A stretch of DNA of 35,878 bases, taken from positions 1 to 35,878 of the IMG/VR virus record IMGVR_UViG_3300009503_000378; one strand, given 5' to 3'. The DNA comes from a virus. A program made the position numbers and the translations under genes. Under the pieces are notes generated by a model. That model made no database searches, was not told the origin of the DNA, and saw only the letters and a list, made by a program, of their open reading frames with translations. This document shows, in pieces, positions 1,987 to 31,020 of the stretch (its first letter is position 1; each line of letters opens with the position of its first letter).

Positions 1987-1987
1987 T

Positions 1988-3514
1988 ATGGATATAATAT
2001 CTGGAATTAAACAAGCTTTTACCTTATATAAAATGTCTAAAAAAGTTAATACAGATGTGGAAATACCTGAACCGTATGCATCTATCATAGAAAAAATGCA
2101 ACGAGTTGCAGAAAAAACTGGCTATAAAATTTATCCAGTTGGAGGATTTGTTAGAGATTTAGTTTCTGGATATTTTCCAAAAGATTTAGATATATTAGTA
2201 GATGGTCCAGGAGATAATCCAGCTGTTGAATTTGCTTCTATTTTAGAACAGAATAACGTTGGAAAAAATGCAGTAACGTTTGAAAAAGAAGTATCAGATA
2301 TAGATCCAATGGCTGCAAAATTTGGCGTTGCTAAAATGATTATTGATGGTATTCCTGTAGAATTAGTTATGCCACGTGGAGAAAAGTATAATCCTGATTC
2401 TAGAAAGCCTGAAGTTTTTAAAGCAGATATAAAACAGGATGCTTTAAGAAGAGATTTCACTATTAACACATTAATGTATGATCCTGCAACCAAGCAAGTA
2501 TTAGATCCGACGGGACACGGTTTAGAAGATTTAAAAAACGATGTTATAAGATCTGCTAATCCTGATGTAGATACAGTTTTCAAAGATGATCCATTAAGAA
2601 TGCTTAGAGCTATCAGATTTATGATAACTAAAGATATGAAAATTGATCCAAATACTTTAGATGGTATTCGTAGGAATGTTGATAGGCTTAATATAATTTC
2701 TAAAGAACGAATTGCTGATGAACTTAAAAAAATAATTTTAGCAGATAAACCCAGTAGGGCAATCAGGCTAATGAAAGACCTTGGTCTTTTAAAATACATT
2801 ATACCGGAGCTTGAAGATACAGAGAAAGTGATGGAAGTTTCTAAATATCATCTTGAGGAACCTACTTTTGAACATATTATGCGAACATTAGATAACATTC
2901 CTCCAGAAATAACTTCTAGATTAGCAGCTTTATTACATGATATTGGTAAACCATTGACAAGAACCATAGAAAAAGGAGTAGTGCATTTTATAAATCATCA
3001 CAATGTTGGTGCTGATATGGCTAGGAAGATATTACAAAGATTAAAATTTCCAAATGAAATGATAGAAGATGTTAGTAAATTGATCCAATATCATATGGTG
3101 CCTCATATGTATACTAGCGAACAAGGAGATAAATCATTAAGAAGATTCTTATTAGATATTGGTCATTTGATAGATTTCATATATGATTTAGCAGAAGCTG
3201 ATAGAAAAGGTTCTGGAGTTAGAAATGAAGAAGCCGAAGCTAGATTTCAAGAATTTAAAGAAAGATTAGAAAAGTTAAGACATCAACCTATTACGGTTGA
3301 ACAGTTGAATAAACCTCTTATTGATGGGAATGAACTAATGGAAATGTTTAATAGTCCGCCTGGAAGGTGGATACGTGATGTACATAAAGCTCTTGTAGAT
3401 TTGCAACTAGAAAATCCACAATTAACAAAGGACCAAGCCAAGACTTTTGTTGAGGAATATGTAAGATTAAAGCATCCCGAAATTTTTAAGAATAGACTCT
3501 TGACAGAACATTAG
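1988..3514 (+). CDS. cca: CCA-adding enzyme / poly(A) polymerase family tRNA nucleotidyltransferase with HD domain
   Basis: The family adds or repairs the 3' CCA of tRNA from CTP and ATP. The N-terminal pol-beta-type head has GGFVRD at residues 52-57 and the catalytic DLD at 66-68. The motifs RRDFTINTLMYDP, DDPLRMLRAIRF and KERIADEL follow in the order seen in class II enzymes. A C-terminal HD domain has LLHDIGKP with H317-D318. At 508 aa it is full length and looks intact. The ATG at 1988 is chosen because AAGGAG lies 7 bases upstream; an in-frame ATG at 1967 lies inside the previous gene and lacks such a site. A phage copy could maintain host or phage tRNAs during infection. No tRNA gene was seen in this window. 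The family call is strong; CCA versus poly(A) activity cannot be separated by eye. Confidence 0.9.
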   Translation: MDIISGIKQAFTLYKMSKKVNTDVEIPEPYASIIEKMQRVAEKTGYKIYPVGGFVRDLVSGYFPKDLDILVDGPGDNPAVEFASILEQNNVGKNAVTFEKEVSDIDPMAAKFGVAKMIIDGIPVELVMPRGEKYNPDSRKPEVFKADIKQDALRRDFTINTLMYDPATKQVLDPTGHGLEDLKNDVIRSANPDVDTVFKDDPLRMLRAIRFMITKDMKIDPNTLDGIRRNVDRLNIISKERIADELKKIILADKPSRAIRLMKDLGLLKYIIPELEDTEKVMEVSKYHLEEPTFEHIMRTLDNIPPEITSRLAALLHDIGKPLTRTIEKGVVHFINHHNVGADMARKILQRLKFPNEMIEDVSKLIQYHMVPHMYTSEQGDKSLRRFLLDIGHLIDFIYDLAEADRKGSGVRNEEAEARFQEFKERLEKLRHQPITVEQLNKPLIDGNELMEMFNSPPGRWIRDVHKALVDLQLENPQLTKDQAKTFVEEYVRLKHPEIFKNRLLTEH

Positions 3515-3549
3515 ATATTTTGTATACTTTATAAAAAAGGAGTAAAACT

Positions 3550-4170
3550 ATGGGTTACCCTACAAATTATGACAGTTTTGTACCTGTAAAAAAGACTGGA
3601 GATACGATAACAGAAGTTATTAATATTCCTGCATCGGCAGCTCCAATTACAGTTTTTACAACATATCCAATTTTAAGAGGCGTGTCTATTCCTGGTTATG
3701 TGGAAGTTGTTGCCATTCCGGCTACTGGACAGTTTAGAGTCTATTATAAATCAAACCAGATTGTATTTGGTCCAACACCATTACCTGTTTCGGTAACTAT
3801 TACTTATATAACTACCGGGACACCAATTGCAGATATTCCATTTCAAGCAATATTAGATGCTATTACAGCGATTGAAAAAGCTCTCGGTTTAAATCCAGGA
3901 GGAACATTTTCAACACTAGCAGATAGGCTTATCGCAATTGAAAGCGGAGCAAATCATACACATAAAGTATATGATGGTACTGGAGCAATTAATGGAACTA
4001 ATATAATATTTACATTGCCTGAGGCACCATCACAACCAGAAGCGACCATAGTAGTTTTAAACGGAAGTGTTTTAACTTATAATACAGATTATATTCTTAG
4101 TGGTGCTGATGTGGTATTTTCAGATCCTCCATCAGTTGGAGATACTTTAATAATTTATTATACAGTCTAA
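3550..4170 (+). CDS. Putative virion structural protein (fibre/decoration-like)
   Basis: This 206-aa, beta-rich protein has an AAGGAG site upstream. The C-terminal 70 residues match a module that recurs in phage fibre and decoration proteins: a NGTNIIFTLPEAP-type strand, VVLNGSVLTYNTDYILSG, then FSDPPSVGDTLIIYYT. The middle has a short helical stretch (AILDAITAIEKALGL) that could trimerise. There is no catalytic motif, signal peptide or membrane segment. It lies between the CCA gene and small structural genes upstream of the terminase. A role as a fibre, fibre connector or capsid decoration protein is inferred from the module type only. Confidence 0.5.
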   Translation: MGYPTNYDSFVPVKKTGDTITEVINIPASAAPITVFTTYPILRGVSIPGYVEVVAIPATGQFRVYYKSNQIVFGPTPLPVSVTITYITTGTPIADIPFQAILDAITAIEKALGLNPGGTFSTLADRLIAIESGANHTHKVYDGTGAINGTNIIFTLPEAPSQPEATIVVLNGSVLTYNTDYILSGADVVFSDPPSVGDTLIIYYTV

Positions 4171-4183
4171 ATAGGAGGAAAAT

Positions 4184-4468
4184 ATGGCTAAATATAATGC
4201 TAAAATACGTGGAAGTAGACAGATTATGGATAAAACTATAACAAATGCAGAGATAGCAGATGGAGCTGGAATAGAAGAACAAAAATTAGCCTTAGCACAC
4301 GGAACTAAAGATTTATATGATAAAAGTGTTCGTACAGATGAATCTAGAACAGTAGAGGACAATGTTGATATTGAAGTTCCTCATATTATTATACGAGACA
4401 AAGTAAACGGTAAAAAATATCGTTTAGAACTTCGCAATGGAACTCCAGTTACGGTGGAATTAACATGA
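4184..4468 (+). CDS. Small putative virion/tail-fibre-associated protein
   Basis: This 94-aa protein follows AGGAGG with good spacing. The segment ITNAEIADGAGIEEQKLAL resembles the 'agI-x-ESKLAL' stretch common in phage fibre and other virion proteins, where it precedes a coiled or beta-helical part. The C-terminal half is beta-strand-like (HIIIRDKVNGKKYRLELRNG). Its stop codon overlaps the next start (ATGA at 4465-4468), which indicates translational coupling. It could be a short fibre or a fibre-attachment protein. The assignment rests on one motif and on context. Confidence 0.45.
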   Translation: MAKYNAKIRGSRQIMDKTITNAEIADGAGIEEQKLALAHGTKDLYDKSVRTDESRTVEDNVDIEVPHIIIRDKVNGKKYRLELRNGTPVTVELT

Positions 4469-4716
4469 ATGTTAATCCTGATTCATTAAAAAAGCTTTGG
4501 GAGATTCAAAAACAATATTCTGGAAAATCCAGAAAAAGAATATTAGACTCTTTGAGAAAAAAGGAATATAATCCTCACCAAGATACGGATTATGTTAACC
4601 AGATGCAAGTTACTGATAGAGATACACAAATGGATCCAGATTTACAAGGAGAAGGAGGATCTTCTCTTGGAGTTGGAATACCAAATTTAACAAACGATAA
4701 ACTGGAGGGTTACTAA
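4465..4716 (+). CDS. Small hypothetical protein, translationally coupled
   Basis: This 83-aa hydrophilic protein starts within the stop codon of the preceding gene (ATGA). The N-terminal half is basic and helical (SLKKLWEIQKQYSGKSRKR); the C-terminal half is acidic and Gly-rich. No known family is recognised. Its position two genes before the terminase large subunit allows a DNA-packaging accessory role, but the sequence does not show one. The next gene begins directly after its stop codon. Confidence 0.65.
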   Translation: MNVNPDSLKKLWEIQKQYSGKSRKRILDSLRKKEYNPHQDTDYVNQMQVTDRDTQMDPDLQGEGGSSLGVGIPNLTNDKLEGY

Positions 4717-5385
4717 ATGCTGCTCACTCCCAAGGCTTTGCTTCTTAAGAAGTTAGAGTTTTTAGTTGGTCGTCCTCTTACTGCAGAAGAACATATGGAA
4801 TTAACTAAAAAAATTAAAGTAGGAAATAATGCAGAAATTAAGGCTGCTGTAGACAAATTACGTCAAGCAAATAGAAAATTTGAACCTCTTTATGTTATTG
4901 TTGAGAAATATGCTAAAAATCAAGATTTATCAAAGTTATCTCAGGAGGAATTGATCAATATTGTAGAGGATATAGTAGTAAAGACAACTTCAGTACAAGC
5001 AGGATTACGCATTCTTAAAAAATCTAAATCTATGTCTAAAATGGCTCTAATTAGGTATATCTATAATCTTTATCTCAGAGATGTACGTAGAAGAGAAAAG
5101 AAAGGAAATCGTGAAGCAATTACAAATGATCAATCAAATAGGCCACCAGTCGGAGAAAGTATGGCAGCTCCGTTAGGATTTGAAAATCCAGTTAAACTTG
5201 ACCGTCTTTTGCCTATTGACGAATATGATTCAAAGGATGAATATCTAAATACTGAATTTAGGAATCGTCCTTCACATAATGAACCAAAAAAACTTACTGT
5301 AAAAGAACGCATTAAAAATTATATCCAAAATTTTATTGGAAAACCAACAGGAGGAAAAGAAGATGTCGGAAATCAAAAGAATTAA
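4717..5385 (+). CDS. Hypothetical protein upstream of terminase
   Basis: This 222-aa, mostly helical and basic protein starts right after the stop of the previous gene, with GGAGGG about 8 bases upstream. Residues 1-130 are predicted helical (SQEELINIVEDIVVKTTS; ALIRYIYNLYLRDVRRREKK). The rest is a polar, probably disordered tail rich in Arg and Lys. It overlaps the following gene by 23 bases. Small terminase subunits often sit in this position and are helical, but no helix-turn-helix motif is obvious, so that is only a possibility. Confidence 0.65.
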   Translation: MLLTPKALLLKKLEFLVGRPLTAEEHMELTKKIKVGNNAEIKAAVDKLRQANRKFEPLYVIVEKYAKNQDLSKLSQEELINIVEDIVVKTTSVQAGLRILKKSKSMSKMALIRYIYNLYLRDVRRREKKGNREAITNDQSNRPPVGESMAAPLGFENPVKLDRLLPIDEYDSKDEYLNTEFRNRPSHNEPKKLTVKERIKNYIQNFIGKPTGGKEDVGNQKN

Positions 5386-5635
5386 CACAAAGTATTCTAG
5401 AGTTAAACCAGCAACAAAATCAGATCCTAATTCTAATCAACTTAAACGCAAAGCTTTTTTAGATGCCTTATTAGATGAAGCAATGGAGGACCCGTATACA
5501 TATAGTTCTTTTGAAGAGGCTATTGCTGATTTAAGTGGAAAGTTTAAATTATCTTTAGACGAAATTAAATATTTGAAGCAATCTTCTAAAGATAAAAAAA
5601 TTAAATTTGTAGAGGAATTTAGAAAAAAACATTAA
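5363..5635 (+). CDS. Small helical hypothetical protein, candidate small terminase subunit by position
   Basis: This 90-aa protein starts at the ATG at 5363 (MSEIKRIN), with GGAGG 8 bases upstream. An in-frame TTG at 5336 has no such site. It overlaps the end of the preceding gene and lies directly before the terminase large subunit. After a basic, polar N-terminus, residues 30-85 form helices ending in a Lys-rich tail (SKDKKIKFVEEFRKKH). Size and position fit a small terminase subunit, but no diagnostic motif is visible. Function is unassigned. Confidence 0.6.
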   Translation: MSEIKRINTKYSRVKPATKSDPNSNQLKRKAFLDALLDEAMEDPYTYSSFEEAIADLSGKFKLSLDEIKYLKQSSKDKKIKFVEEFRKKH

Positions 5636-5639
5636 TTCT

Positions 5640-7421
5640 ATGCTCCAAGAACTAGACCCAATATATTTTATAGAGAAGAATTTTGAATTAAATGGCAAGC
5701 ATTTTACTTTAATAGATGATAAACTAGAAAATGCTCGCCATTATATTCGTGGTATTTATTATACCATAGCATTTACTTTGCCTAAAATAAAGAAGCCTAT
5801 GGTTATTGTAAAAGGTCGTCAGGTTGAGATGTCAACCACGATGAGTAATATTATAGCGTATTTTACAGAGACATATCCATATTTTAAAACGTTATATGTT
5901 ACTCCTGCTCTTGAACAGATGAAGAAATTTTCTGGAGAAAAAATTTCTCCGTTACTAAGATATAAACGTAATCCAGATATTTTAAATCCTTTAGCCAAAC
6001 AGGAGGATATTGAAGGAACGTTTACAGTTAAAATGAAACAGTTTTCGAATGGATCTACTATCTATTTAGAATCAGCATCAGATGAAGGAAATAGGATACG
6101 TAGTATTTCCGCAGATATGTTAATAAAAGATGAGTATCAGGATTTTGATGAAAATGCAGAAAGCAATATAGACGAAGTTTTAAGCCATTCTGCTTGGGGT
6201 TTAGATATAGCTTTAGGTACTCCGAAATATACAGAGACTAATTTTGAAAGAAAATGGAAGAGTTCAACTCAGCATTATTATCATTTACAATGTCCATCGT
6301 GTAAACATTGGTTTGTATTGAAATTTGATTTATTAACTACAGGATTTAAAGTTCAATGTCCGAATTGCCATCACGAAGAAGACAAAAGAGCACTAATTCC
6401 GCACGGGAAGTGGATACCATTAGGTAATCCAAATGCCTTATATATAGGTTATCATTTATCACAGCTTTATGTTCCTTGGAAGTCTAAAGAAAAACTGGAC
6501 CAAAACATAAAGGAAAAGCAGGAAGCTGGAATTAACGTTGAGAAATATTTAAAAAACGAAATTTTAGGAGAATTTTACGCTGGTATTTCTCAAAAACCTC
6601 CGACAGAAGCTATTGAACGTGCTTTTAAGCGAGATTTGCCTTATAATATTATTATTCCTATTTCTCGTCCAGTTTATGCTGGAGTTGACTGGGGTGGATG
6701 GAGTGCTTTGGAAGATGACCCGACACAATGTTATACTATTTATGCTGATGGTACATTAACAGAAAACGGAGTTTTATTTGTTAATTATATGGAAGTTATA
6801 GATATGCAAGATGATATAGAAAAAGCTGATAGAGTTGCACAATTAATGGAGCAGCGTCGTGTTAAATTATGTGTAGCTGATAGTGGATATGGCAAAAATC
6901 AATGTTTGCGTTTATATTCAAAGTTTCCTACTAGATTTTTGCGTTGCAAATATCTTCCAGGATCATCGCTTACTTTAATTGATACTAAATCAGAAATAAA
7001 ATCTGGTCTTATAAAAGCTAATATAGATTATTCATTAGAAGAGCTTTATTCTGCGATGCAGCAGGATAAAATACATATTGCTCGAAATCAATATACAGAA
7101 AGATTTATAGAACATTTTAAGAACTATGAAATAACTTTACAAGAAACGCATAATCATGTCCATAAACATTTTCAGAAAGTAAGAGGAAAGAAAAATAAAG
7201 TAGATGCAGTTCACGCAATCAATTTTTTACGTTTAGCTGCGTTACACGATTCTAATGCTTTAGAGCATTCAGATCTACCTGTAGTAGGTGGAGAAAGTAT
7301 GCGTCCTAGAGCATATCCTTTATTAACTGGGCATTCATTGGAAGAATTAAAATATAGAGCACAAATGGGTAATCCATTAGGAGTTCTTAGTAGATCCATT
7401 AGACGCACAATGGGTGAATAA
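5640..7421 (+). CDS. terL: Terminase large subunit (packaging ATPase and nuclease)
   Basis: The protein drives DNA translocation into the prohead and cuts concatemers. The ATPase domain has a variant Walker A, KGRQVEMST (58-66), and Walker B MLIKDE (160-165) with D164 and E165. A CxxC...CxxC zinc knuckle follows (C218, C221, C240, C243), as in GpA-type terminases. The RNase-H-fold nuclease has D350 (YAGVDWGG), D414 (CVADSGYG) and D522 (VDAVHAINF). At 593 aa the length is normal. The ATG at 5640 has only a weak upstream purine site four bases after the previous stop, so translation may be coupled. The portal gene follows after 20 bases, the classic packaging pair. Confidence 0.93.
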   Translation: MLQELDPIYFIEKNFELNGKHFTLIDDKLENARHYIRGIYYTIAFTLPKIKKPMVIVKGRQVEMSTTMSNIIAYFTETYPYFKTLYVTPALEQMKKFSGEKISPLLRYKRNPDILNPLAKQEDIEGTFTVKMKQFSNGSTIYLESASDEGNRIRSISADMLIKDEYQDFDENAESNIDEVLSHSAWGLDIALGTPKYTETNFERKWKSSTQHYYHLQCPSCKHWFVLKFDLLTTGFKVQCPNCHHEEDKRALIPHGKWIPLGNPNALYIGYHLSQLYVPWKSKEKLDQNIKEKQEAGINVEKYLKNEILGEFYAGISQKPPTEAIERAFKRDLPYNIIIPISRPVYAGVDWGGWSALEDDPTQCYTIYADGTLTENGVLFVNYMEVIDMQDDIEKADRVAQLMEQRRVKLCVADSGYGKNQCLRLYSKFPTRFLRCKYLPGSSLTLIDTKSEIKSGLIKANIDYSLEELYSAMQQDKIHIARNQYTERFIEHFKNYEITLQETHNHVHKHFQKVRGKKNKVDAVHAINFLRLAALHDSNALEHSDLPVVGGESMRPRAYPLLTGHSLEELKYRAQMGNPLGVLSRSIRRTMGE

Positions 7422-7441
7422 TCAACCGGAGGTTCTAATAT

Positions 7442-10204
7442 ATGTATATAAATAGTTCTACTCCTCAAGGACAGTCAAATTTTTACAAAAAGATAGCTTC
7501 ACAGAAACTTGCAAGAGGCAATCAAGGATTTACACGTAAAGCTTCAGTATTTGGATATGGTACAGGATCGGATTCTGTTGGTATGCCTCCAGTAGCACTT
7601 AGTGGTGGACAGGTTAGCCGTATGGCTATGAAGCCGTTCAGTCCATTATACCAAGAATCCAATTTAATGTTGCCAAAAGATAGAAAGACAATGAACGCCT
7701 ACAACAGGCATTATTATGAAACAGATTATTGGGTTGGGAATATTATTGATTTACATACTTATTATCCACTTGGTGGATTTGATATTATTTCAAAAAATAA
7801 AGATCTAGAACGTCTAATGATTCGTGCAGCTGATCGTGTAGATTTATTAAACATAGTATTAGGGGTTGGGTTAGAATATTGGGTTTATGGGGAAGCATTT
7901 CCGTTCTTAGAATGGGATAAAAATACTATGATGTGGAGCAGAGCAACTATATTTAATCCTGATTTAATGGAAGTTCGAAGAACCATATTTATGGATAAAC
8001 CAATTATTACTTTAATTCCTGATGCTGAATTAAAGAGAATTGTTACTTCTACACACCCAGCGGATGCAGTATTGCGTGAACAAATTCCGAGAGGAGTTTT
8101 GGAATATGTTTTAAAAGGTGAGAATATTCCATTATCATCAAGAAATATATCTCATATTCTTAAAAAGACCGTTCCACACGATTTACGTGGAACTTCTATT
8201 ATTCAAAGAGTTTGGAAAGAACTTATGTTACGTGATGCATTCAGAGAAGTATTATTTGTTATTGCTCAAAACCATATTACTCCATTAAAGATATTCAAGA
8301 TTGGTGGAGTTAATAAAGAATATTATCCAAGTTCTGATGAATTAGCAATATGGCAAGGAATTATTGAAGAAGCACAGAACGATCCGAATTTTAGTATTAT
8401 AACACACGAAGGATTAGAAGTAGATTATAAGGGTGCAACTGGACAGATTCTAGATGTTCATTCATATTTAGAGCAAATACAAAATAACGTATTGACAGGT
8501 TTATTTGCTTCTAAAGCTATGACATCTGGTGATGGTCCGTGTTATGATTGTCAAACGGAAGTATTAACTGAAAATGGATGGAAGAAATATGAGGAAGTTT
8601 TAGAAAATGAAAGGATAGCAGTTTTTGATCCTGAAACTCATAAAATAGACTATGAACTTCCAGAAGAGCGGCATTATTGGTTAAATGATGGTAAAAAAGA
8701 TATGATCCATTTTGAAACTCAGCATATAGATGTTTGTGTAACTGCAGACCATAATATGCACGTTTTGCGTGACGGTAAATGGATAAAGATTCCTGCACAA
8801 GAGGTACGTTTAGGAGATAAATTTTGTGGACATTTAGAATGGGAAAGTCCAATTGAACCAAAACCTATAGTAATTGGTGATAAGATTATAGATCCAAAAA
8901 TTTGGATGAAATTTTTGGGCTATTTTATTTCAGAAGGTTATATTAGTTATAATAAATCAGAACACGAGAACGGACCCAATAGTTTTACTTATCAAATACG
9001 TATACCACAGAGTAAATTAAGAAATCCAGAAACATTTGCAGATATAGAGGAAACGCTAAAGGCTATGGAATTTACTTATTCTATCATAGAGAAATCTCCA
9101 AAAGGATCGGAAAGCTATGATTTTATTATTTATTCAAAAGAGTTAGTAGAATATTTAGAAGAATTATTTGATGTAGTTCAAATAAATTCGTATACTAAAT
9201 ATATTCCACAAGACTATTTAATGTGGCCGAAAGAATATTTAAGTTTACTTTTACAAACATTGATGTCTGGAGATAGACATATTCGTTATTCACATAAGAA
9301 GAGAGGGCATTATTATGCGTACTCTACTTGTTCTGAGAAATTGGCTGATTCTATACAAGAACTTATTTTAAAGGTAGGATATTTGCCAACTAAGAGATGG
9401 GATCCTTATAGTGGAACTTCTGGGTTATGGCGTGTATATTACTCAACGAATTCCCCAGATATTGTTACGCCAGGATTAGCTAGTGCAGAACATATAAGTA
9501 AACTAGATGGCTATAAAGATTATGTATGGTGTTTTAAAATGCCATCAGGTGCTTTTATAACGAGACGTAATGGTAAAATTGGTACACATTTCAATACATA
9601 TGCAAACGCACAAGTAGCTTATGAAATTCTTCAGAAGCGTTATGTTTATTTTAGAAATGTTATTGAGAGATGGCTTAAGAATAAATTTTTCCTTCCTATT
9701 TCTATTATGCATGGTTTCAAAAATAAAGAAGGTGGATATGATGTACCACAGATTAAATGGTCTCGTATGGATTTTAATAAAGATGATGCTTGGAGAAATA
9801 AAGTTATTGAACTCAATCAGTCAGAGAAAAAACTTATTTCTGATAGAACTGTTGTTACGGAACTCGGTTTTGATTATGATGAGCAACAGGAACTTATTCA
9901 GACAGAACGTATTGCTCAACAAGCACAAAAAGAAAAAGCCAAAGCAATGGCTAAAGGAGAAGAAGGTGGAGCTGGTGGTTTAGGAGGTTTAGGTGGAGGT
10001 TTAGGTGGAGGTTTGGGAGGCGGACTTGGAGGTTTAGGTGGAGGTGGAGGTTTGGGTGATTTAGGTGGGGGAGGAGGTTTAGAAGGTCTAGGTGGAGGAG
10101 GAGAAGGCGGACCAGAACTTGGAGGTCTTGGTGGTGGCTTAGAAGGTTTAGGTGGTGGCGGTGAAGGTCCAGAATCAACAGCATTTGGTACACCTGGAGA
10201 ATAG
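7442..10204 (+). CDS. Portal protein, interrupted by an intein, with Gly-rich C-terminal tail
   Basis: The extein parts form a 568-aa portal. Residues 60-366 carry the stem/wing region (HYYETDYWVGNIIDLHTYY, FREVLFVIAQNHITPLKIF). Residues 719 onward continue with TYANAQVAYEILQKRY. Joining across the intein gives SGDGP-TYANAQVA, which matches the conserved GxGxxYAxAxVA-type segment of phage portals. Residues 367-718 are the intein, listed separately. The last 80 residues are almost entirely Gly with Leu and some Glu (about 9964-10190), which is unusual for a portal and probably flexible. CGGAGG precedes the ATG. The 12-fold portal ring sits at the capsid vertex and accepts the terminase, encoded just upstream. 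Function depends on splicing. Confidence 0.9.
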   Translation: MYINSSTPQGQSNFYKKIASQKLARGNQGFTRKASVFGYGTGSDSVGMPPVALSGGQVSRMAMKPFSPLYQESNLMLPKDRKTMNAYNRHYYETDYWVGNIIDLHTYYPLGGFDIISKNKDLERLMIRAADRVDLLNIVLGVGLEYWVYGEAFPFLEWDKNTMMWSRATIFNPDLMEVRRTIFMDKPIITLIPDAELKRIVTSTHPADAVLREQIPRGVLEYVLKGENIPLSSRNISHILKKTVPHDLRGTSIIQRVWKELMLRDAFREVLFVIAQNHITPLKIFKIGGVNKEYYPSSDELAIWQGIIEEAQNDPNFSIITHEGLEVDYKGATGQILDVHSYLEQIQNNVLTGLFASKAMTSGDGPCYDCQTEVLTENGWKKYEEVLENERIAVFDPETHKIDYELPEERHYWLNDGKKDMIHFETQHIDVCVTADHNMHVLRDGKWIKIPAQEVRLGDKFCGHLEWESPIEPKPIVIGDKIIDPKIWMKFLGYFISEGYISYNKSEHENGPNSFTYQIRIPQSKLRNPETFADIEETLKAMEFTYSIIEKSPKGSESYDFIIYSKELVEYLEELFDVVQINSYTKYIPQDYLMWPKEYLSLLLQTLMSGDRHIRYSHKKRGHYYAYSTCSEKLADSIQELILKVGYLPTKRWDPYSGTSGLWRVYYSTNSPDIVTPGLASAEHISKLDGYKDYVWCFKMPSGAFITRRNGKIGTHFNTYANAQVAYEILQKRYVYFRNVIERWLKNKFFLPISIMHGFKNKEGGYDVPQIKWSRMDFNKDDAWRNKVIELNQSEKKLISDRTVVTELGFDYDEQQELIQTERIAQQAQKEKAKAMAKGEEGGAGGLGGLGGGLGGGLGGGLGGLGGGGGLGDLGGGGGLEGLGGGGEGGPELGGLGGGLEGLGGGGEGPESTAFGTPGE
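8540..9595 (+). other. Intein with LAGLIDADG-type homing endonuclease inside the portal
   Basis: The element covers precursor residues 367-718 (352 aa). It begins with Cys1 in CYDCQTEVLTENGW (block A). Block B is VTADHNMHV with the expected T-x-x-H. Endonuclease blocks are FLGYFISEGYI (491-500, acidic E498) and LLQTLMSGDRHI (603-614, D611). The end reads ITRRNGKIGTHFN, with terminal Asn718 and a Thr at +1. The penultimate residue is Phe rather than the usual His, though a His sits one place earlier. The second endonuclease motif has Arg where Gly is usual. Splicing looks feasible; endonuclease activity is less certain. Confidence 0.9.
9964..10190 (+). repeat. Gly-Leu low-complexity repeat in the portal C-terminus
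   Basis: Imperfect GGT/GGA-rich repeats encode GGLGGGLGGGLGG-like sequence, broken later by Glu-rich GLGDL, GLEGLGGGGEG and GGPELGG. The coding strand is locally G-rich in an AT-rich genome. The tract lies entirely within the portal reading frame and keeps it open, so it is expressed. Slippage-driven length variation is likely. Confidence 0.9.
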
Positions 10205-10242
10205 TCATGAATTTCTTTAATAACTCATTGCGAGGTGTAGAT

Positions 10243-11373
10243 ATGAAAATATCCAAGGCAGCTGAAATTGCCATAGATTTAGATGGAACTTTAATAGAAG
10301 ATAGATTTCCGTTTCTTGGCAAACCTATTGAAGCAAATGTAGAATTGGTGCGTAAATTACACGATGCTGGTTATCGTATTGTAATTTTTACTGCAAGGCT
10401 TACTACTAGACCAGGTGATAAAGCAAAAATTGAAAAATTTCTACGTGATCGTGATATTCCATTTGATAAAATTACAAATGTAAAACCTAGTACAGCTTCA
10501 GTTTTTATAGATGATCGTAGCATTAATGTTAAATATAATGAAAACTGGCCAAGAAATATTATAGATCGTATTAAAAAGATTATAAAAGACCATAAAGATG
10601 CAAAAGCTAAATTAAAAAAAGCGTCTTTAGAACATCCAGATACAATAGTGTTCAAACCAAATGAATATTATACGCAAGGATTGACAGAACAACAAGTTTT
10701 TGATTATTATAATAAGTATGCAAATCAAATTGTTGAACAGCTAAAAGATAAACCAGTAATGATTGTGATAAGAACACCTGCTGGAGATATAATTAGAAAG
10801 AACGACCCAGCTGATGGAACTCTTACTATTTCAAATATTGAAGATTTTAATAATAAATTAAATACAGGTAGAACTATTGAAGTTCATAGAATATTAAAAG
10901 ACGAAGAAAAATTTGGTCTTGTAGATGTAGATCCAAGACCGGAAGTACCATTTGAAGATACTAAAAAACTAACCCAAGAATTAGTAGATTTTTTAAAGGA
11001 AGCTTTTAATGATATTTTAGATAACATTCAGGTTTATTTTAGTGGGAATAGAGGATTTCATATATATCTAAATTGGAGAAAAGAGATGAATGTCACTGAA
11101 ATGCGTCAAGAACTTAGAAAGGCACTTGAAAATTTTTTAATTCAAAAGAAAGATCCTAAAGTAAAATTAGAATTACCCACTAGAAATGATGAGACCAGGT
11201 TAGATATTACAATTTATCATCCTGGTGGCTCTATTAGAGTTCCTTATTCTTTACATAAGAAAACAGGTTTAGCTGCTATACCAGTTAATAATATTATGGA
11301 ATTTGATCCAAAATCGGCTATTATTGTAAAATCAAAAGGTAGTTATATTAACCTAAAATTTTTTAAAAAATAA
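10243..11373 (+). CDS. HAD phosphatase fused to LigD-PolDom-like archaeo-eukaryotic primase/polymerase
   Basis: Residues 1-125 are a HAD-superfamily phosphatase: IDLDGTL with nucleophile D12 and D14, VIFTAR with T50, and FIDDRS with D90-D91. Residues 135-376 read as the polymerase domain of NHEJ LigD. LTEQQVFDYYNKYANQI and LKDKPVMIVIRTPAG match its N-terminal lobe. VDVDP carries metal ligands D228 and D230; SGNRGFH (267-273) is the nucleotide-binding motif. D321 is the third acid, followed by RVPYSLHKKTGL (332-343). No ligase or Ku domain is present. The ATG at 10243 is preferred (CGAGGTG 5 bases upstream); ATG 10207 with GGAGA is possible and adds 12 residues. A role in healing and filling DNA ends is inferred. 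Co-location with head genes is unusual. Confidence 0.85.
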   Translation: MKISKAAEIAIDLDGTLIEDRFPFLGKPIEANVELVRKLHDAGYRIVIFTARLTTRPGDKAKIEKFLRDRDIPFDKITNVKPSTASVFIDDRSINVKYNENWPRNIIDRIKKIIKDHKDAKAKLKKASLEHPDTIVFKPNEYYTQGLTEQQVFDYYNKYANQIVEQLKDKPVMIVIRTPAGDIIRKNDPADGTLTISNIEDFNNKLNTGRTIEVHRILKDEEKFGLVDVDPRPEVPFEDTKKLTQELVDFLKEAFNDILDNIQVYFSGNRGFHIYLNWRKEMNVTEMRQELRKALENFLIQKKDPKVKLELPTRNDETRLDITIYHPGGSIRVPYSLHKKTGLAAIPVNNIMEFDPKSAIIVKSKGSYINLKFFKK

Positions 11374-11386
11374 GGAGGAAAGAGAA

Positions 11387-11854
11387 ATGGCAATTGTTAA
11401 TCACAAGTATCATGTAACGTTTACGGAAGATACTGATACGTATCCATCAGTAGACAGAGAGATTAATTTTACAGATAGTTCAACTCCGATAGATGATAAG
11501 GATAGGATTTTTATTGCTCCTAGTTCTGCTGCTACATGGACTTTAGACACACCAGTTAAAATTTTTGATGTCAGTGCCCCTATTTCTGGAGTTGCCCCAA
11601 ATGGACGTAAAGCTCGTTATATGCTTATTGAAGTTACTTCTCCGGTATATTTATGGTTTGAAAATGACCCTACTCCGACAAATCCAGTAGATCCAATTAC
11701 TGCTGTTCCTATACGTATAGAACGTATGATGATGGTTGAGGGTCCAACAAGTGGAAGTATTCAAAAGATTTGGGCTGTTAATCCAAGTAGAACAACTGAT
11801 CCGACCCCAGTGACTGTAGAAATTAAATTATACTATACATTAATTAATTTATAA
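11387..11854 (+). CDS. Putative virion structural protein
   Basis: This 155-aa protein is preceded by AAGGAGG. It is beta-strand rich with many Thr, Pro and Ser and an Asp-rich start (TFTEDTDTYPS). No enzyme motif, signal peptide or membrane segment is visible. Composition and position between portal-linked genes and the capsid genes suggest a virion component such as a decoration or head-fibre protein. I do not recognise the family. Confidence 0.55.
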   Translation: MAIVNHKYHVTFTEDTDTYPSVDREINFTDSSTPIDDKDRIFIAPSSAATWTLDTPVKIFDVSAPISGVAPNGRKARYMLIEVTSPVYLWFENDPTPTNPVDPITAVPIRIERMMMVEGPTSGSIQKIWAVNPSRTTDPTPVTVEIKLYYTLINL

Positions 11855-11868
11855 AATAGGAGGATACC

Positions 11869-12111
11869 ATGCAAAATATTAAAAAGACACTTGAATCATT
11901 AAAAAAATCTGGTGATAGTAAAACAGTTAAAACAGGTAAAGTAGGTCCTATGCTTGATCCTATAGACTATCTTTTAGGATTAGGACTTCAGTTTTATAGA
12001 GATCCTCTTTTTAGAAAATTTGTTTATAAAAAAACTCATAAGGTTCCGGCTGATTTACCGGAAGAACAACAATTAGAATTATTAGCAGAATTCTATAAAG
12101 GTTTATCTTAA
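11869..12111 (+). CDS. Small hypothetical protein
   Basis: This 80-aa protein has a strong AGGAGG site. The basic N-terminus (KKTLESLKKSGDSKTVKTGK) is followed by a more hydrophobic helical part (DPIDYLLGLGLQFYRDPLFRKFVY) and an acidic helix (LPEEQQLELLAEFYKG). The hydrophobic stretch is too short and polar for a confident membrane segment. Function is not recognised; its neighbours are the HAD-polymerase region and a DNA-binding protein. Confidence 0.6.
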   Translation: MQNIKKTLESLKKSGDSKTVKTGKVGPMLDPIDYLLGLGLQFYRDPLFRKFVYKKTHKVPADLPEEQQLELLAEFYKGLS

Positions 12112-12138
12112 TTTTTTCTAACCTGAAAGGAGGAGATT

Positions 12139-12924
12139 ATGGCATTTTATGGACCTGTTATTGGGAGTTCACGATTAAACAAAGCTTTGTATTTATTAGC
12201 CCAAGGAAAGTCAAAACGAGCAGCCTGTTCAATCGCAAAAATAGATAGACAGCGATTGAGTTTTCTGTTAGGAGGAAGTAAATTAGTTCCATATAAGTTT
12301 GCTACAAAAGTAGCTAAAGATGTATTACAAAATCATCTTACTTTTGATCAAATTAAGAAAAAATATGGAATTCGTGGCTTACGTGCTCTTAATAATTATC
12401 AGATAATTGTGAAACTGTATAGAGATAAGATTGAAGAACAAATGATTTTAAGAGCTCGGATTAAGGCGGATTCAGTAGAAAATATACCAAGTGTTAAAAC
12501 TTTAAGTAAAACTCTAAATGTCTCTAAAGATAAAGTTTATGCTAAACTCCGAAAAATACTAAATTCAGTACGAATAGGAAACGTAGCATTAATGAGAGGT
12601 TCTAAGGTTAGAACTACAGTATTTGCACTTTGGAAACAAGGGGTTCGTGATCCATATGTTATTAGTTCTATAGTAAAAAGAACACCACAATATGTTGTTT
12701 ATATTTTAAATAGATATGGAATTCGTGTTAGAGAAAATAAAACTCCATTTTTTACAGATAGGGACTATGAGTTGATTGACCGTTTACGTAAGACCATGAC
12801 ATGGCGTGAAATCGCCACAGTTTTCGGTTGTTCTATTGGGTCAGTTTACAACTTCTACGTCCAGTATAGAATAAAACCAAGGAGGAACGAAAATGAAAAA
12901 ATCTACTCAGCTGTCCGCAGTTGA
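12139..12924 (+). CDS. Multi-helix-turn-helix DNA-binding protein
   Basis: This 261-aa basic protein contains at least three helix-turn-helix-like units. The first is near residues 15-50 (KALYLLAQGKSKRAACSIAK). A central one is near 115-140 (SVKTLSKTLNVSKDKVYAKL). C-terminal ones are near 165-200 (DPYVISSIVKRTPQYVVYIL) and 210-245 (TWREIATVFGCSIGSVYNF). The arrangement resembles resolvase- or sigma-type DNA-binding modules used in tandem. There is no catalytic domain. The gene overlaps the following phosphoesterase gene by 32 bases, and that protein starts with a similar helix-turn-helix, so the two may share a DNA target. A regulator or a small-terminase-like DNA-recognition role are both possible. 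Confidence 0.7.
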   Translation: MAFYGPVIGSSRLNKALYLLAQGKSKRAACSIAKIDRQRLSFLLGGSKLVPYKFATKVAKDVLQNHLTFDQIKKKYGIRGLRALNNYQIIVKLYRDKIEEQMILRARIKADSVENIPSVKTLSKTLNVSKDKVYAKLRKILNSVRIGNVALMRGSKVRTTVFALWKQGVRDPYVISSIVKRTPQYVVYILNRYGIRVRENKTPFFTDRDYELIDRLRKTMTWREIATVFGCSIGSVYNFYVQYRIKPRRNENEKIYSAVRS

Positions 12925-13984
12925 AGTCCGAGCAATTCAGGCTCTTATCAACAAAGGAAATTCCCCAGAAGTTATTTCTGAAGTCTTAAAAATTCCAAAG
13001 AAGCACGTCGTTTATGTACTTCGTAATTTGAAAAAATTTGATCCAGTTTTAGAACCTAAATCTATTGAGCAGAGAGAGACTGAAGAACAAATTGAAGATT
13101 TTACCAGGATACTTATAGATAAAAAAAGTTCAGCCGAAATAGGTGCTAAACTGTTTGAACATATTTCAGAATTATCTGAAGATTATATGCATAATTTTAA
13201 AGCCGATTCTATTTGTAAATTCAAATGGAAACCTCGTTATGTCGGGATAACAGCATTATCTGATTTTCATATAGGGCATGAAGGAGTAGACTATAAACGA
13301 CTTCAGCATGATATGAACGTGATAGCAAAAACACCAAATATGTTTATAGCTTTCTTAGGCGATGCTATTGATAATTTTATTAACGAAAAGCATCTAGGTG
13401 CCATTATTAATGCAGTTAGTAGCCCAAAACAGCAATTGTATATGTTACAGCATCTTTTGAGTATGCTAAAAGATCCTAAAGCCAAGATTTTGTTTGTTAC
13501 AAAAGATAATCACGTTTCTAACAGACTTAAAAAAGCTACTGGAATTGATTGGTCCAATAAAATGTGGGACGATTACGGAGTATTTTATGGTGGTGAAGAA
13601 GTTCGTTGTGAATTATATCTGGGAAAACAACAGTATAATATTTTAGCTAGACATAGTTTTCGTGGTCAATCATCTGTACATCTAACGGCTGGAGCTAAAA
13701 AACTACTCCGAGAAGGTATGTATGAAGATATAGATGTCGTTATGTTAGCCCATAAACACGAAGGAGCGGCTGAACTCTTTTCATATAGAGGTCGTCCTCG
13801 TTTGGCTATTCAAACCTCTACTTATAAACTTTTGGATCCATATGCTGCTCATTTAGGGTTCCATCCTCCGACGGTATTTATGCCTTGTATTATTTTATCT
13901 CCAGAAAAAAAGGATTTTATATTTTGTCCTAATGTGGACGTTGCTGCGGAAATGCTGGAAGTTTTAAATAAAAAATATAAATAA
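12893..13984 (+). CDS. Calcineurin-like metallophosphoesterase with N-terminal helix-turn-helix
   Basis: Residues 1-48 hold a helix-turn-helix (SPEVISEVLKIPKKHVVYVL) very like the one in the preceding protein. Residues 115-345 have the phosphoesterase signature in order: D124-x-H126 (SDFHIG), G156-D157 (FLGDAID), N206-H207 (TKDNH, where GNH is usual), H254 (ARHSF) and H287-x-H289 (AHKHE, where GHxH is usual). All metal ligands appear present despite the altered flanking residues. The family includes nucleases and nucleotide phosphatases, and the DNA-binding domain favours a nucleic-acid substrate. AAGGAGG precedes the ATG. A terminator follows, so this gene ends a transcription unit. Confidence 0.82.
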   Translation: MKKSTQLSAVEVRAIQALINKGNSPEVISEVLKIPKKHVVYVLRNLKKFDPVLEPKSIEQRETEEQIEDFTRILIDKKSSAEIGAKLFEHISELSEDYMHNFKADSICKFKWKPRYVGITALSDFHIGHEGVDYKRLQHDMNVIAKTPNMFIAFLGDAIDNFINEKHLGAIINAVSSPKQQLYMLQHLLSMLKDPKAKILFVTKDNHVSNRLKKATGIDWSNKMWDDYGVFYGGEEVRCELYLGKQQYNILARHSFRGQSSVHLTAGAKKLLREGMYEDIDVVMLAHKHEGAAELFSYRGRPRLAIQTSTYKLLDPYAAHLGFHPPTVFMPCIILSPEKKDFIFCPNVDVAAEMLEVLNKKYK

Positions 13985-13990
13985 GCATTA

Positions 13991-14026
13991 TAGGCGGCTC
14001 AAAAGAGCCGCCTAACTGATTTTTTC
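13991..14026 (+). terminator. Rho-independent terminator
   Basis: A perfect 10-base-pair GC-rich stem (TAGGCGGCTC paired with GAGCCGCCTA) closes an AAAA tetraloop. After a short ACTGA spacer comes a six-T run at 14020-14025. It lies seven bases after the phosphoesterase stop codon and is the clearest terminator in the window. Confidence 0.92.
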
Positions 14027-14036
14027 TCATATTTTT

Positions 14037-14064
14037 CCCCATACCCCCACCCACACCCCACCCC
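14037..14064 (-). promoter_or_regulatory. G-quadruplex motif on the - strand (C-rich tract on the + strand)
   Basis: Five C-runs of 4, 5, 3, 4 and 4 bases (14037-14040, 14044-14048, 14050-14052, 14056-14059, 14061-14064) are separated by spacers of 1-3 bases. The complement fits the canonical G3+N1-7 quadruplex pattern, with five runs available for four positions. It is conspicuous in AT-rich DNA and lies between the terminator and the next gene. A role in transcription or replication is inference. Confidence 0.7.
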
Positions 14065-14104
14065 TAATATATATTAGAGTGTATTTTTGAAAAGGAGTCT
14101 TAAA
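14065..14104 (+). promoter_or_regulatory. Possible promoter and leader of the capsid transcription unit
   Basis: An AT-rich palindrome (TAATATATATTA, 14065-14076) follows the G-quadruplex tract and could supply a -10-like TATATT. No convincing -35 element is seen because the C-rich tract occupies that place. AAAGGAG at 14091-14097 is the ribosome binding site of the next gene. The call rests on position after a terminator and is tentative. Confidence 0.3.
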
Positions 14105-14458
14105 TTGATAGGTTATACTATAAATTCTATAAAACGTGCAGAAGTAATGGATGAGATGCCTACTAGTCCTAATCAACAGGGATTAGGTTTTGGGCCTTAT
14201 CTTGATAATGAGCATCCAAACGATGGAGAGAGTCTAGTAGCGATAGAACGTAGCTTTCCAAAACCAACTGGCTGGAAAGCGATTAAAATAAGAAAGCCAA
14301 GTGATAAATCTACGATAGCTTTTGAAGATCTTTTGAGAGTTAGCGAAGAGTTTGAAGATTTAATTAGATTTTTAGTAGATGAATCTCAAGGAGAGACTTT
14401 AGAAGAGTCTTTAGCGGAACAATTTAAACATTTTCCACGAGTAAATTGGAGTTTATAA
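14105..14458 (+). CDS. Hypothetical protein, TTG start
   Basis: This 117-aa protein starts at the TTG at 14105, which has AAAGGAG 7 bases upstream; an earlier in-frame TTG at 14087 has no such site. The N-terminal part is polar with a Gly-Pro stretch (NQQGLGFGPYLDNEHPNDGE). The C-terminal half is acidic and helical (FEDLLRVSEEFEDLIRFLVD). It is the first gene after the terminator and G-quadruplex tract. Its stop abuts the next start (TAAATG). The family is not recognised. Confidence 0.6.
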   Translation: MIGYTINSIKRAEVMDEMPTSPNQQGLGFGPYLDNEHPNDGESLVAIERSFPKPTGWKAIKIRKPSDKSTIAFEDLLRVSEEFEDLIRFLVDESQGETLEESLAEQFKHFPRVNWSL

Positions 14459-14638
14459 ATGGCATTTACAAAAGTTGGTGACAGTATTATCACAAAGATA
14501 ATGGATGTTAAAGATGGTAAAATTGTAAAGACCAGTGAGGTTAATAGTATTAGTAATGTATGTCCTAAATGCGGTAAAAATCCGTGTGAATGTACTAAAA
14601 CTCAAAATTTAGAGGAAAACAATGGACTTAAAAGATAA
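14459..14638 (+). CDS. Small zinc-ribbon-like protein (59 aa)
   Basis: This short frame follows the previous stop directly, with GGAG about 7 bases upstream, and overlaps the next gene by 17 bases, as coupled genes do. Residues 35-45 read CPKCGKNPCEC, a compact four-Cys knuckle likely to bind zinc. The N-terminal part is a short beta-like stretch (KVGDSIITKIMDVKDGKIVK). Four closely spaced cysteines and perfect packing between neighbours make it a probable gene. Function is unknown. Confidence 0.65.
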   Translation: MAFTKVGDSIITKIMDVKDGKIVKTSEVNSISNVCPKCGKNPCECTKTQNLEENNGLKR

Positions 14639-17111
14639 GATTACTCAAATTTTTAATTATTTAGAAAACAGATCTATTGCTAATCCAGAAGAAGCGGCTC
14701 AGATGCAAAAGCAAGCTGTTATGAAAGAAAGAGAAATTTTTGAGAGAGCACTTATAGATACAGTTAAAAGTGGTGGAATGTCTTATGATGAAGCCGTGGC
14801 TAGAGTAAAGGCTTCAGATTTTTCACCATTAGACCAAAATATAATTTTAGCAAATATAGGTCATCTTGAAGCAAATCTACCTATAAAAACAGCTAGTCAA
14901 AAATCTATGGAGGTTGACACTATGGACCCAGTTTCAAAGGAAATTGAGGAATTAAAAAAACGTCTTCCTCATTACGGGGCATTTGTCGAAAATGTTTTAA
15001 AAACTTCTTATTATTTGGGCACTGGTGATAAAGCAAAACCAGATCCTCAAGGTGAGAAAGTTTTTAAAGAAGACGAAAAATACGTTGAACAATCTAAATC
15101 AGAGGAGGCTAAAAGAATGAGCCAGACAGAAAAGAGAATTAATCCAGAAACAAGACTTTATCCAAAAACCGCAGGAACTGACAAGTATAATACGAAAGCT
15201 CCGGAAGATCTTAGAGAATCGTATGCTCCAAAACACGATCAATGGGACAATGATGTTTTGGATAAAGAATTAGCTGACAATAAAAAAGGTCAGAGCGAAC
15301 AGGAACGTCGTACGAAAGAATTGCAGAAGAAGAGAGAAGAGTATTTAAGAGCAGCAGACAAAGTAGATGTTAAATTTTCACACGCATCTAATGCATGGGT
15401 TATTTCAGAAAAAGCAACTGGAATTCCAATAGTGATCGCTTCTGTAGAAGATATCACAGGCAATCATCCTATTAGTCCAGAAGCATTAGCAGAATTAAAG
15501 AGTGGTGAATTTGGTAAATTAATTGTGGAAGATATCAAAGAAAATGGATTAGAAACTGCAGCAAGAAATTTACTTGGTGATACTTTTGATAAACTTGCTG
15601 CAGAACACGCGTCTTCTATAAAAACAGCCGAAGAGAAAGCAGATATGAGAGTGAAACTTGAGACTCTTAAAGATATTTATGCTTCTCTTAAAGAAGGTCT
15701 TGGTAAATTAACAAAAGTAGCTTCAGTTTCTAGATTATTTAAAAGAGCAGTAGAAGCTATTCAAGATGCTGAGGAAGCAGTAGAAACTGATAAAGATAAT
15801 GCTCCAGAAGCAATTTCTGATGCAGCAGAAGCACTTACACCTATAAGTGATATGGGTCTTGCAATGGAAGGCCAGAGTGAACAGCCTGATGCAAATAAAC
15901 TTGCAGAAGAAATTAAAGCATCAATTTCTGACCCAGAAATTCAGGCTAAAGTTGATCAGTTAGTAGATATGGTACTTTCTTCAAATTCAGGTACTACTCC
16001 TCTTATTGAAAATGAAATAGGAGAAGCAGAGGAAGAGATAGGAAAAGCAGAAGAAGAAATAGGAGAAGCAGAAGAAGAAATAGGAGAAGCAGAGGAAGAA
16101 ATAGGAGAGGCAGAAGAAATAGGAGAGGCAGAAGAAAAAGAGGAAAAAGGAAAGAAAGAGAAAAAAGAAGATAAAGAAGAAAAGGAAGATAAAGGCAAAG
16201 AAAAGAAAACCTCTGCAGTTGTTGCAGCACTTAGGAAACTTGGTGCTGATAGAGGCAAAGGCGATTATGATGTAACAAAAGGATTTAGCCTGGATCAGAT
16301 GGGTGAACATAACAAAGGAAACATCACTCAAGATGGTAAAAAGTTTATGACATGGGAAACATTAAAGAAGCAATTTGAAGCTTTAGTAAATAAAAAACCT
16401 ACAGGTAAACTTGTTGCTAACTTTGTAAATGAATTAGTAAAAACAGCAGCTGGAACTGGGGTTATGTCAGCAGAAGAAGTTTATAGATTAGCATTTGGTC
16501 CTGAATATGCAAAACAATTAACAAAGGAAATGACACAGAAACAAATTCTTAAAGAACATGATAGATTAACAAAAGACACAGATAATGTATATGCTTCTGC
16601 AAGCGAAGCTTATATGAGTGGTGCAACAAGGATGAAGCTTGCAATTGAAGCTACGCAGAATATGGTTAAAAAAGGTTTGATCAAAGAAGCGGATAGAGAA
16701 GCATTTGATCGTCAGGTAGATAATTTTATGAAAATGGATGAAGATACATTTAGAGCGTTTATGGATTCAACTGAAAATATAGTAGCAACGTCAGAACTTG
16801 AAGATGGTAGATTTAAAGTTGCAGCTTTAGACAGACCAGACGAATATGGAAACATAGTGACAGGTTGGATTGATGGAAAACACGTTGCATCTATGTCTGG
16901 TGAAGATATAAAAGCTCCAAATGGTAAAGTAACAAAAGCACATTTAGCAAACGCAATGCATTTATTAAAACAGGCATTTAAAGAAGGGCTCTTTGATGAA
17001 GAGCTTTCTGATGGTAAAGTTCCTACTGATGTTCAGGGTGTAGACTTAAAAGGCTTGAACGTTGGACAGGAATCATCTAAACCAGTTTTGAAAGTAGAAG
17101 ATTTAATATAA
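14622..17111 (+). CDS. Large acidic head protein, possible scaffold or internal core protein
   Basis: This 829-aa, highly charged, mostly helical protein is encoded two genes before the major capsid protein. Residues 200-260 and 325-420 look coiled-coil-forming. Residues 465-506 are six copies of a Glu-rich EEIGEAE-type repeat, followed by a Lys/Glu run (about 507-530) ending near AVVAALRKLGA. The motif K-T-A recurs (IKTASQ, PKTAGT, IKTAEE, VKTAAG) and could mark protease cleavage sites. Composition and position suit a scaffolding or prohead core protein processed by the protease encoded at 24669. There is no enzyme motif. GAGG lies upstream of the ATG. The role is inferred from context. Confidence 0.55.
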   Translation: MDLKDKITQIFNYLENRSIANPEEAAQMQKQAVMKEREIFERALIDTVKSGGMSYDEAVARVKASDFSPLDQNIILANIGHLEANLPIKTASQKSMEVDTMDPVSKEIEELKKRLPHYGAFVENVLKTSYYLGTGDKAKPDPQGEKVFKEDEKYVEQSKSEEAKRMSQTEKRINPETRLYPKTAGTDKYNTKAPEDLRESYAPKHDQWDNDVLDKELADNKKGQSEQERRTKELQKKREEYLRAADKVDVKFSHASNAWVISEKATGIPIVIASVEDITGNHPISPEALAELKSGEFGKLIVEDIKENGLETAARNLLGDTFDKLAAEHASSIKTAEEKADMRVKLETLKDIYASLKEGLGKLTKVASVSRLFKRAVEAIQDAEEAVETDKDNAPEAISDAAEALTPISDMGLAMEGQSEQPDANKLAEEIKASISDPEIQAKVDQLVDMVLSSNSGTTPLIENEIGEAEEEIGKAEEEIGEAEEEIGEAEEEIGEAEEIGEAEEKEEKGKKEKKEDKEEKEDKGKEKKTSAVVAALRKLGADRGKGDYDVTKGFSLDQMGEHNKGNITQDGKKFMTWETLKKQFEALVNKKPTGKLVANFVNELVKTAAGTGVMSAEEVYRLAFGPEYAKQLTKEMTQKQILKEHDRLTKDTDNVYASASEAYMSGATRMKLAIEATQNMVKKGLIKEADREAFDRQVDNFMKMDEDTFRAFMDSTENIVATSELEDGRFKVAALDRPDEYGNIVTGWIDGKHVASMSGEDIKAPNGKVTKAHLANAMHLLKQAFKEGLFDEELSDGKVPTDVQGVDLKGLNVGQESSKPVLKVEDLI
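16014..16139 (+). repeat. 21-base tandem repeat coding EEIGEAE heptads
   Basis: Four full 21-base units (GAAATAGGAGAAGCAGAAGAA and close variants) and two shortened 18-base units lie in tandem within the scaffold-like gene. All units keep the frame. The heptad period is consistent with a coiled coil. Length variation by slippage is expected. Confidence 0.9.
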
Positions 17112-31007: not shown

Positions 31008-31020
31008 GAGGTAGTAAATT

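Follow-up and report, generated by a model that had tools for sequence, protein, structure and literature searches.

Polymerases of the PolDom type fill ends during break repair in bacteria and archaea, typically in concert with Ku and a ligase. In LigD the polymerase domain (PF21686; PDB 2fao and 2irx) is fused to a ligase and to the LigD_N phosphoesterase. The same fold occurs as a gene of its own in the stand-alone NHEJ polymerase of Methanocella (5dmu) and in mycobacterial Prim-PolC (5op0, 6sa0), which are cellular enzymes that work with a Ku/ligase operon or with LigC, and which carry no HAD domain. The 5'-phosphate pocket of LigD comprises Asn13, Lys16 and Lys26 (PMC8656161). HAD phosphatases of the BT0820 type (PDB 2obb; PHROG 1238) stand alone or are joined to partners other than PolDom, and a HAD core is also found in the 3'-phosphatase domain of T4 polynucleotide kinase-phosphatase (T4 Pnkp; 5uj0).

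The window analysed here is the whole of a 35,878-nucleotide stretch of viral DNA (IMG/VR virus record IMGVR_UViG_3300009503_000378, positions 1 to 35,878). Unlike that of LigD, the PolDom encoded in it is fused to a HAD phosphatase domain, with no Ku found, and this HAD-PolDom fusion is a new architecture that was not met elsewhere in the collections searched. From position 1 to ~35.9 kb the window matches a contig of 149,961 bp (IMGVR_UViG_3300005573_000004, here G001) at ~83.8-119.7 kb, with 99.9-100% nucleotide identity. Its source is a large myovirus-like phage; all genomes compared are metagenomic contigs. The features of the locus are as follows.

5640-7421, + strand: terminase large subunit, in the same gene run
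7442-10204, + strand: portal gene directly upstream of the fusion, with an intein-like insert
10207-10242, + strand: in-frame leader (MNFFNNSLRGVD), remnant of an N-terminal extension of ~118 residues kept in sister contigs L003 and L004
10243-11373, + strand: HAD-PolDom fusion gene, 376 aa, one open frame, kept in sister contigs
10243-10617, + strand: HAD phosphatase domain of BT0820/PHROG 1238 type, residues 1-125, with D12, D14, T50, R52, K81, D90 and D91
10276-10284, + strand: HAD motif I, catalytic D12-x-D14 (DLDGT), read from the sequence
10618-11370, + strand: archaeo-eukaryotic primase (AEP) domain of LigD-PolDom type, residues ~130-376, from Pfam, sequence alignment and fold
10924-10932, + strand: polymerase motif I, D228-V-D230 (VDVD)
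11041-11061, + strand: polymerase motif II, SGNRGFH, residues 267-273 (H273)
11203-11205, + strand: polymerase motif III, metal ligand D321
11236-11268, + strand: RVPYSLHKKTG motif, residues 332-342, also in archaeal PriS
L003 7611-8000 and L004 3137-3526: N-terminal extension of HAD-PolDom in the sister contigs, in frame, absent from the window

The gene order is terminase, portal, HAD-PolDom, and the fusion gene begins 2-38 nt downstream of the portal stop. An alternative in-frame ATG at 10207, 2 nt past that stop, would add 12 residues; both starts are plausible, with the ATG at 10243 being the likelier because a ribosome-site-like GAGGTG (10232-10237) stands before it. In L003 and L004 (~95% nucleotide identity) the same frame is ~355 bp longer at its 5' end, providing ~118 extra N-terminal residues for which family-model searches matched no family. 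This stretch is absent from the window and from two near-identical contigs, which is most simply explained by an in-frame deletion. The long form retains both ribosome-site-like sequences and might give two products. The portal insert (~8535-9600) is intein-like, includes a domain of LAGLIDADG type (PF14528, E 4.7e-7) and is kept in the sister contigs, as these are collinear.

Four contigs, all from one phage species group, retain the HAD-PolDom frame with 97-100% protein identity, and codon changes among its three versions are mostly synonymous (dN/dS ~0.03-0.16, on small counts), suggesting that purifying selection acts on both domains, which look maintained. An artefact or a frame error was ruled out on the same grounds, namely the frame shared by four contigs and the mostly synonymous changes. 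The assignment of the two domains as HAD and PolDom is virtually certain.

All three metal-binding motifs of the polymerase (DxD, SGxxGxH and the third Asp) are present, and the Asp columns are invariant in alignments. The domain scores 42.1 bits with Pfam LigD_Prim-Pol (PF21686; gathering cut-off 27.4), and residues 145-220 can be aligned with the N-terminal region typical of LigD polymerase domains (TEQQVFDYYNKYA..I...LKDKP....R.P.G ... IEVH). As archaeal PriS also carries RVPYSLHKKTG, this motif by itself has no diagnostic value. An AlphaFold2 model of the domain (pLDDT 84.8, pTM 0.84) superimposes on the P. aeruginosa LigD PolDom with Z 21.5 (229 aligned residues over model positions 1-241, 2.9 Å), followed by M. 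tuberculosis LigD (Z 21.0), the M. paludicola NHEJ polymerase (20.5) and Prim-PolC (20.2), and the score drops to 15.1 against PriS and 11.3 against CAPP. Thus the window protein shares with LigD PolDom the whole-domain fold (Z 21-21.5), the three catalytic motifs and the N-terminal region, and with the stand-alone cellular enzymes the same fold (Z 20-20.5). Ranks 1-16 of a Foldseek search with the model were all PolDom or Prim-PolC, and in a viral fold library no hits other than generic primases were obtained, with TM not above 0.48. Among loci fetched by motif, a Methanocellales locus (L079) gives the best cellular sequence match. The domain also differs from LigD in sequence: its score of 41.9 bits lies far under the cut-off of the NCBIfam TIGR02778 equivalog (214.7), and equivalents of Lys16 and Lys26 are absent as judged from alignment, LTE replacing ITK. 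One alignment pairs an Asn with LigD Asn13, and another does not keep it.

A profile search yielded 63 more viral AEP relatives, which are PrimPol-helicase-like, mostly 600-1100 aa long and without a HAD domain; an identity as an ordinary PrimPol-helicase was rejected on the basis of this size and composition.

The active site of the HAD domain is complete, with all four motifs present (D12/D14, T50, K81 and D90-D91); the capless core with catalytic DxD, T, K and DD is that of the BT0820 HAD family. The protein is matched by the PHROG 1238 HAD (E 1.5e-17) and its HAD domain by PHROG 415, a polynucleotide kinase family (E 3.3e-8); the BT0820 model of NCBIfam (NF046079) gives 38.5 bits, under its cut-off of 165. 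With BT0820 itself the domain shares the capless core and the DxDGT, TxR, K and DDR motifs at 29% identity. PNKP phosphatase models (PF08645, PF25109) had no match to the window protein at E<=1. By sequence, the HAD domain is BT0820-like and not PNKP. Its AlphaFold2 model (pLDDT 88.6, pTM 0.75; the alignments for the PolDom and HAD models held 12 and 17 sequences, respectively) compares about equally with BT0820 (Z 10.6), the phage enzyme AfhF (10.3), V. cholerae 1xpj (10.1) and the 3'-phosphatase of T4 Pnkp (9.8), the last with the smallest rmsd of these four tied folds (2.0 Å over 92 residues, 23% identity); because of this tie the fold leaves the substrate unsettled. In contrast to T4 Pnkp, the window protein has no kinase domain, its content being HAD and PolDom only, and the HAD domain is ~48 residues shorter across the aligned region and is missed by the PNKP sequence models.

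The initial annotation had thus read the phosphatase-polymerase frame at 10243-11373 correctly, as frame and motif residues can be read directly, and was right in recognizing a DxDGT-type HAD phosphatase (with its active site intact) and, in the C-terminal half, a LigD PolDom, for which family score and primase fold agree. The likeness to polynucleotide kinase-phosphatases that it had drawn proved not to be specific, since BT0820/PHROG 1238 is closest, the T4 Pnkp fold score is tied with HADs of sugar-phosphatase type, and a kinase domain is missing.

The HAD domain could instead be a phosphatase of small molecules (sugar or nucleotide phosphates), for instance in nucleotide salvage or DNA modification, joined to the polymerase as such HADs hop between phage genes, with PolDom acting alone. 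The BT0820/PHROG 1238 likeness points this way, as does the structural tie with AfhF, which is a phage D-arabinose 1,5-diphosphate phosphatase (sugar-diphosphate type), and for the BT0820 family no polynucleotide substrate was shown in this analysis. By tblastn this HAD type is present in 182 phage records; stand-alone genes are common beside ThyX, NadR or sugar genes, and in Lactobacillus phage LJ (L156 4998-5954) the same type is fused to the HK97 prohead protease, directly 3' of the portal gene. Against this, a distant phage lineage has HAD and PolDom in close proximity (see below), and selection seems to maintain both domains. We regard a small-molecule role as unlikely.

The G001 genome encodes a family A DNA polymerase, DnaB, RecA, a split DnaG and an ATP-dependent DNA ligase of 290 aa (139633-140505), the last lying outside the operon, ~45 kb from HAD-PolDom. 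The family A polymerase carries a uracil-DNA-glycosylase-like N-terminal part (L010 164-2437, G001 57164-59440), and the zinc ribbon and Toprim parts of DnaG reside in two separate genes (G001 35564-35965 and 62394-63059). As the phage has its own replisome, HAD-PolDom constitutes a second polymerase, encoded apart from the replication genes, and with separate PolA, DnaB and split DnaG a primase role for it is unneeded; a role as the sole primase of the phage was rejected on account of split DnaG and DnaB. The remaining variant appears very improbable; in it, PolDom would support late replication or recombination as an accessory primase or by making primers, and HAD would dephosphorylate the initiating nucleotide or the product. 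AEP enzymes such as CAPP do prime DNA (PMC8211822), and RVPYSLHKKTG is PriS-like, but PriS and CAPP are much more distant in fold than LigD PolDom, the gene is located away from the replication genes, and the phage itself encodes DnaB and both parts of DnaG (zinc and Toprim), which also argues against it.

Direct searches for relatives of the fusion gave just the same phage species group. A second HAD-PolDom fusion was not found by tblastn of phages and plasmids, by protein-based and TerL scans of viral contigs, by a DNA-motif scan of viral and genome contigs or in 46 phage records searched whole, nor was such a fusion found in the literature among open-licence papers. Stand-alone PolDoms could be identified in two other phages. 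The first, a contig of 55.5 kb (G011, IMGVR_UViG_3300038466_000036) found by screening HAD-bearing phage contigs, encodes a PolDom of 226 residues with 27% identity to that of the window over 236 residues (E 6e-18), and its gene ends 8 nt before TerL. A separate HAD gene, adjoined by an InPase gene, lies 3.7 kb from it. Among 155 ORFs of G001, HAD and PolDom are the only proteins with a tblastn match in G011. The second, a jumbo phage of 312 kb (G050, IMGVR_UViG_3300032046_000001) found when all viral contigs were scanned with an alignment, has a stand-alone PolDom of 225 residues in its late genes, followed by an RlaP-type RNA-repair nucleotidyltransferase (NTase). It also encodes two tandem LigD-type (LigD_N) 3'-phosphoesterase proteins at 16 kb from PolDom (L247 11959-12729, G050 30959-31729), as well as RNA ligases and RtcB; its HAD lies among late genes that, by eye, resemble those near the HAD of G011.

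The PolDoms of G011 and G050 show 27-30% identity to that of the window over 174-236 residues and share with it a GLTE...YxKY N-terminus, the DxD and the third Asp; they differ in lacking a fused HAD and in a diverged motif II (SAEGYH, TGKTSFH), and both are encoded in late genes. Neither matches any Pfam or NCBIfam family above chance. G011 and G050 are related, because they share late genes, and G001 stands apart. The sequences thus point to a family of phage PolDoms with members, in this analysis, in three phages that belong to two distant groups; all three PolDom-bearing lineages also have a PHROG-1238 HAD. The fusion in one lineage and the close neighbourhood in another form the strongest evidence that HAD and PolDom cooperate, which we consider probable. 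The functional pairing of phosphatase and polymerase presumed in the initial annotation is in keeping with this arrangement, and so is the proximity to head and packaging genes, the fusion following the portal gene here and PolDom lying beside TerL in G011.

The partnership with host Ku that had been envisaged is not borne out: Ku was not found in G001, G050 or G011, albeit that these contigs may be incomplete, and the lysines of LigD that contact the 5'-phosphate are not conserved. A host ligase, likewise suggested, is not needed, as the phage encodes its own ATP-dependent DNA ligase. With no Ku found and both phosphate-pocket lysines missing by alignment, membership of the NHEJ system is not supported, which argues for a filling of gaps or ends that would be independent of that pocket. 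Linkage to an NHEJ ligase and a LigD_N phosphoesterase is also lacking, the ligase being ~45 kb away and LigD_N not being detected in G001. As the defining features failed, we do not file the protein as LigD, NHEJ polymerase or PNKP.

Tentatively, and with slightly less than even confidence, we propose that the window protein is a two-domain, Ku-independent enzyme of the phage for healing and short filling of nucleic-acid ends. HAD would take a terminal phosphate, most likely a 3'-phosphate, off a broken or damaged strand, after which PolDom would extend the 3'-OH by a few ribo- or deoxynucleotides, either added or templated, leaving a product that could be sealed by the phage's own ATP-dependent DNA ligase. 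Working late in infection and without Ku, the enzyme would act on gaps, nicks or ends in the DNA of the phage and thereby ensure that what is packaged is intact. The combination of phosphatase and PolDom would follow a logic of healing and then filling, in which a blocking 3'-phosphate is removed, nucleotides are added and the end is handed to a ligase. In LigD the first of these steps falls to the LigD_N phosphoesterase, an enzyme type that G050 possesses, and in the window phage HAD could stand in for it. End healing is favoured by the presence of two intact predicted catalytic domains within a single conserved protein, by the retention of both among late packaging-linked genes in the lineages of the window and of G011, and by the LigD-type 3'-phosphoesterases that G050 encodes in addition to its PolDom. 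Counted against it are the stand-alone PolDoms of two phages, which imply that HAD is not covalently required, as well as the absence of Ku, the missing Lys16 and Lys26, the BT0820-like nature of HAD and the distance of the ligase. Both the DNA ligase and the PolDom/Prim-PolC fold seem to speak for DNA rather than RNA as the substrate; the RNA-repair NTase beside the G050 PolDom counts against end healing of DNA.

This last neighbour bears on the alternative with most support, RNA repair, which is a serious rival even if we judge it unlikely. HAD would then be an RNA 3'-phosphatase of the Swiss-army-knife type, and PolDom, along with the CCA-adding enzyme encoded 8 kb upstream, would restore nucleotides to cleaved tRNA or other RNA and so counteract host RNases. 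In support of such a function, a survey of jumbo phages (PMC7824862) places NTases and HADs of the PKN-HAD and Swiss-army-knife kinds in RNA repair; further support comes from the RlaP NTase that follows PolDom in G050, the RNA ligases and RtcB of that phage, and the CCA-adding-type NTase with HD domain that the window encodes a few genes upstream of the terminase (1967-3514). On the other hand, neither an Rnl2-type nor an RtcB ligase was found in the 150 kb of G001, the window is without tRNA genes, and PolDom is by fold nearest to polymerases of DNA gaps.

A more far-reaching version of the end-healing proposal is that a phage-specific family of LigD-type polymerases, with HAD and free of Ku, belongs to the late packaging programme and fills genome gaps or ends before or during packaging, the window protein being the fused form and the N-terminal domain of the sister contigs perhaps bringing the protein to the head; this is doubtful at present. 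If true, viruses would run a reduced, Ku-free form of end repair, with PolDom joined to a phosphatase in one phage lineage and a related gene placed by the packaging motor in another. The single small protein lets end cleaning and filling be tested together, and it draws attention to a family of viral polymerases whose stand-alone forms are missed by the Pfam and NCBIfam models.

Several other genes of these phages are of interest. Directly after a gene for an HTH protein, the window encodes a calcineurin-like phosphoesterase (12893-13984) of PHROG 7339 (DNA repair exonuclease, E 7.9e-38). A glycine-rich protein (20880-22454) has an NTase-like start and a C-terminal ferritin-like domain (~22233-22409) that resembles the encapsulin cargo EncB, albeit below cut-off (E 1e-5), and a short protein of similar kind seems to be encoded in G050 (30257-30571). 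The late proteins at 20880, 23493, 24203 and 25556 share an N-terminal MSF[VI]NFK[KR] (or MSSFINFKK), which is perhaps a head-targeting propeptide, near a putative head protease at 24669. Two genes at 28383-28718 and 28755-29096, encoding 111 and 113 aa, are tandem duplicates with ~81% nucleotide identity. Finally, many ankyrin-repeat-like proteins could be recognized by eye in G001 (847-15736 and 141351-149797), with repeated copies near both contig ends.
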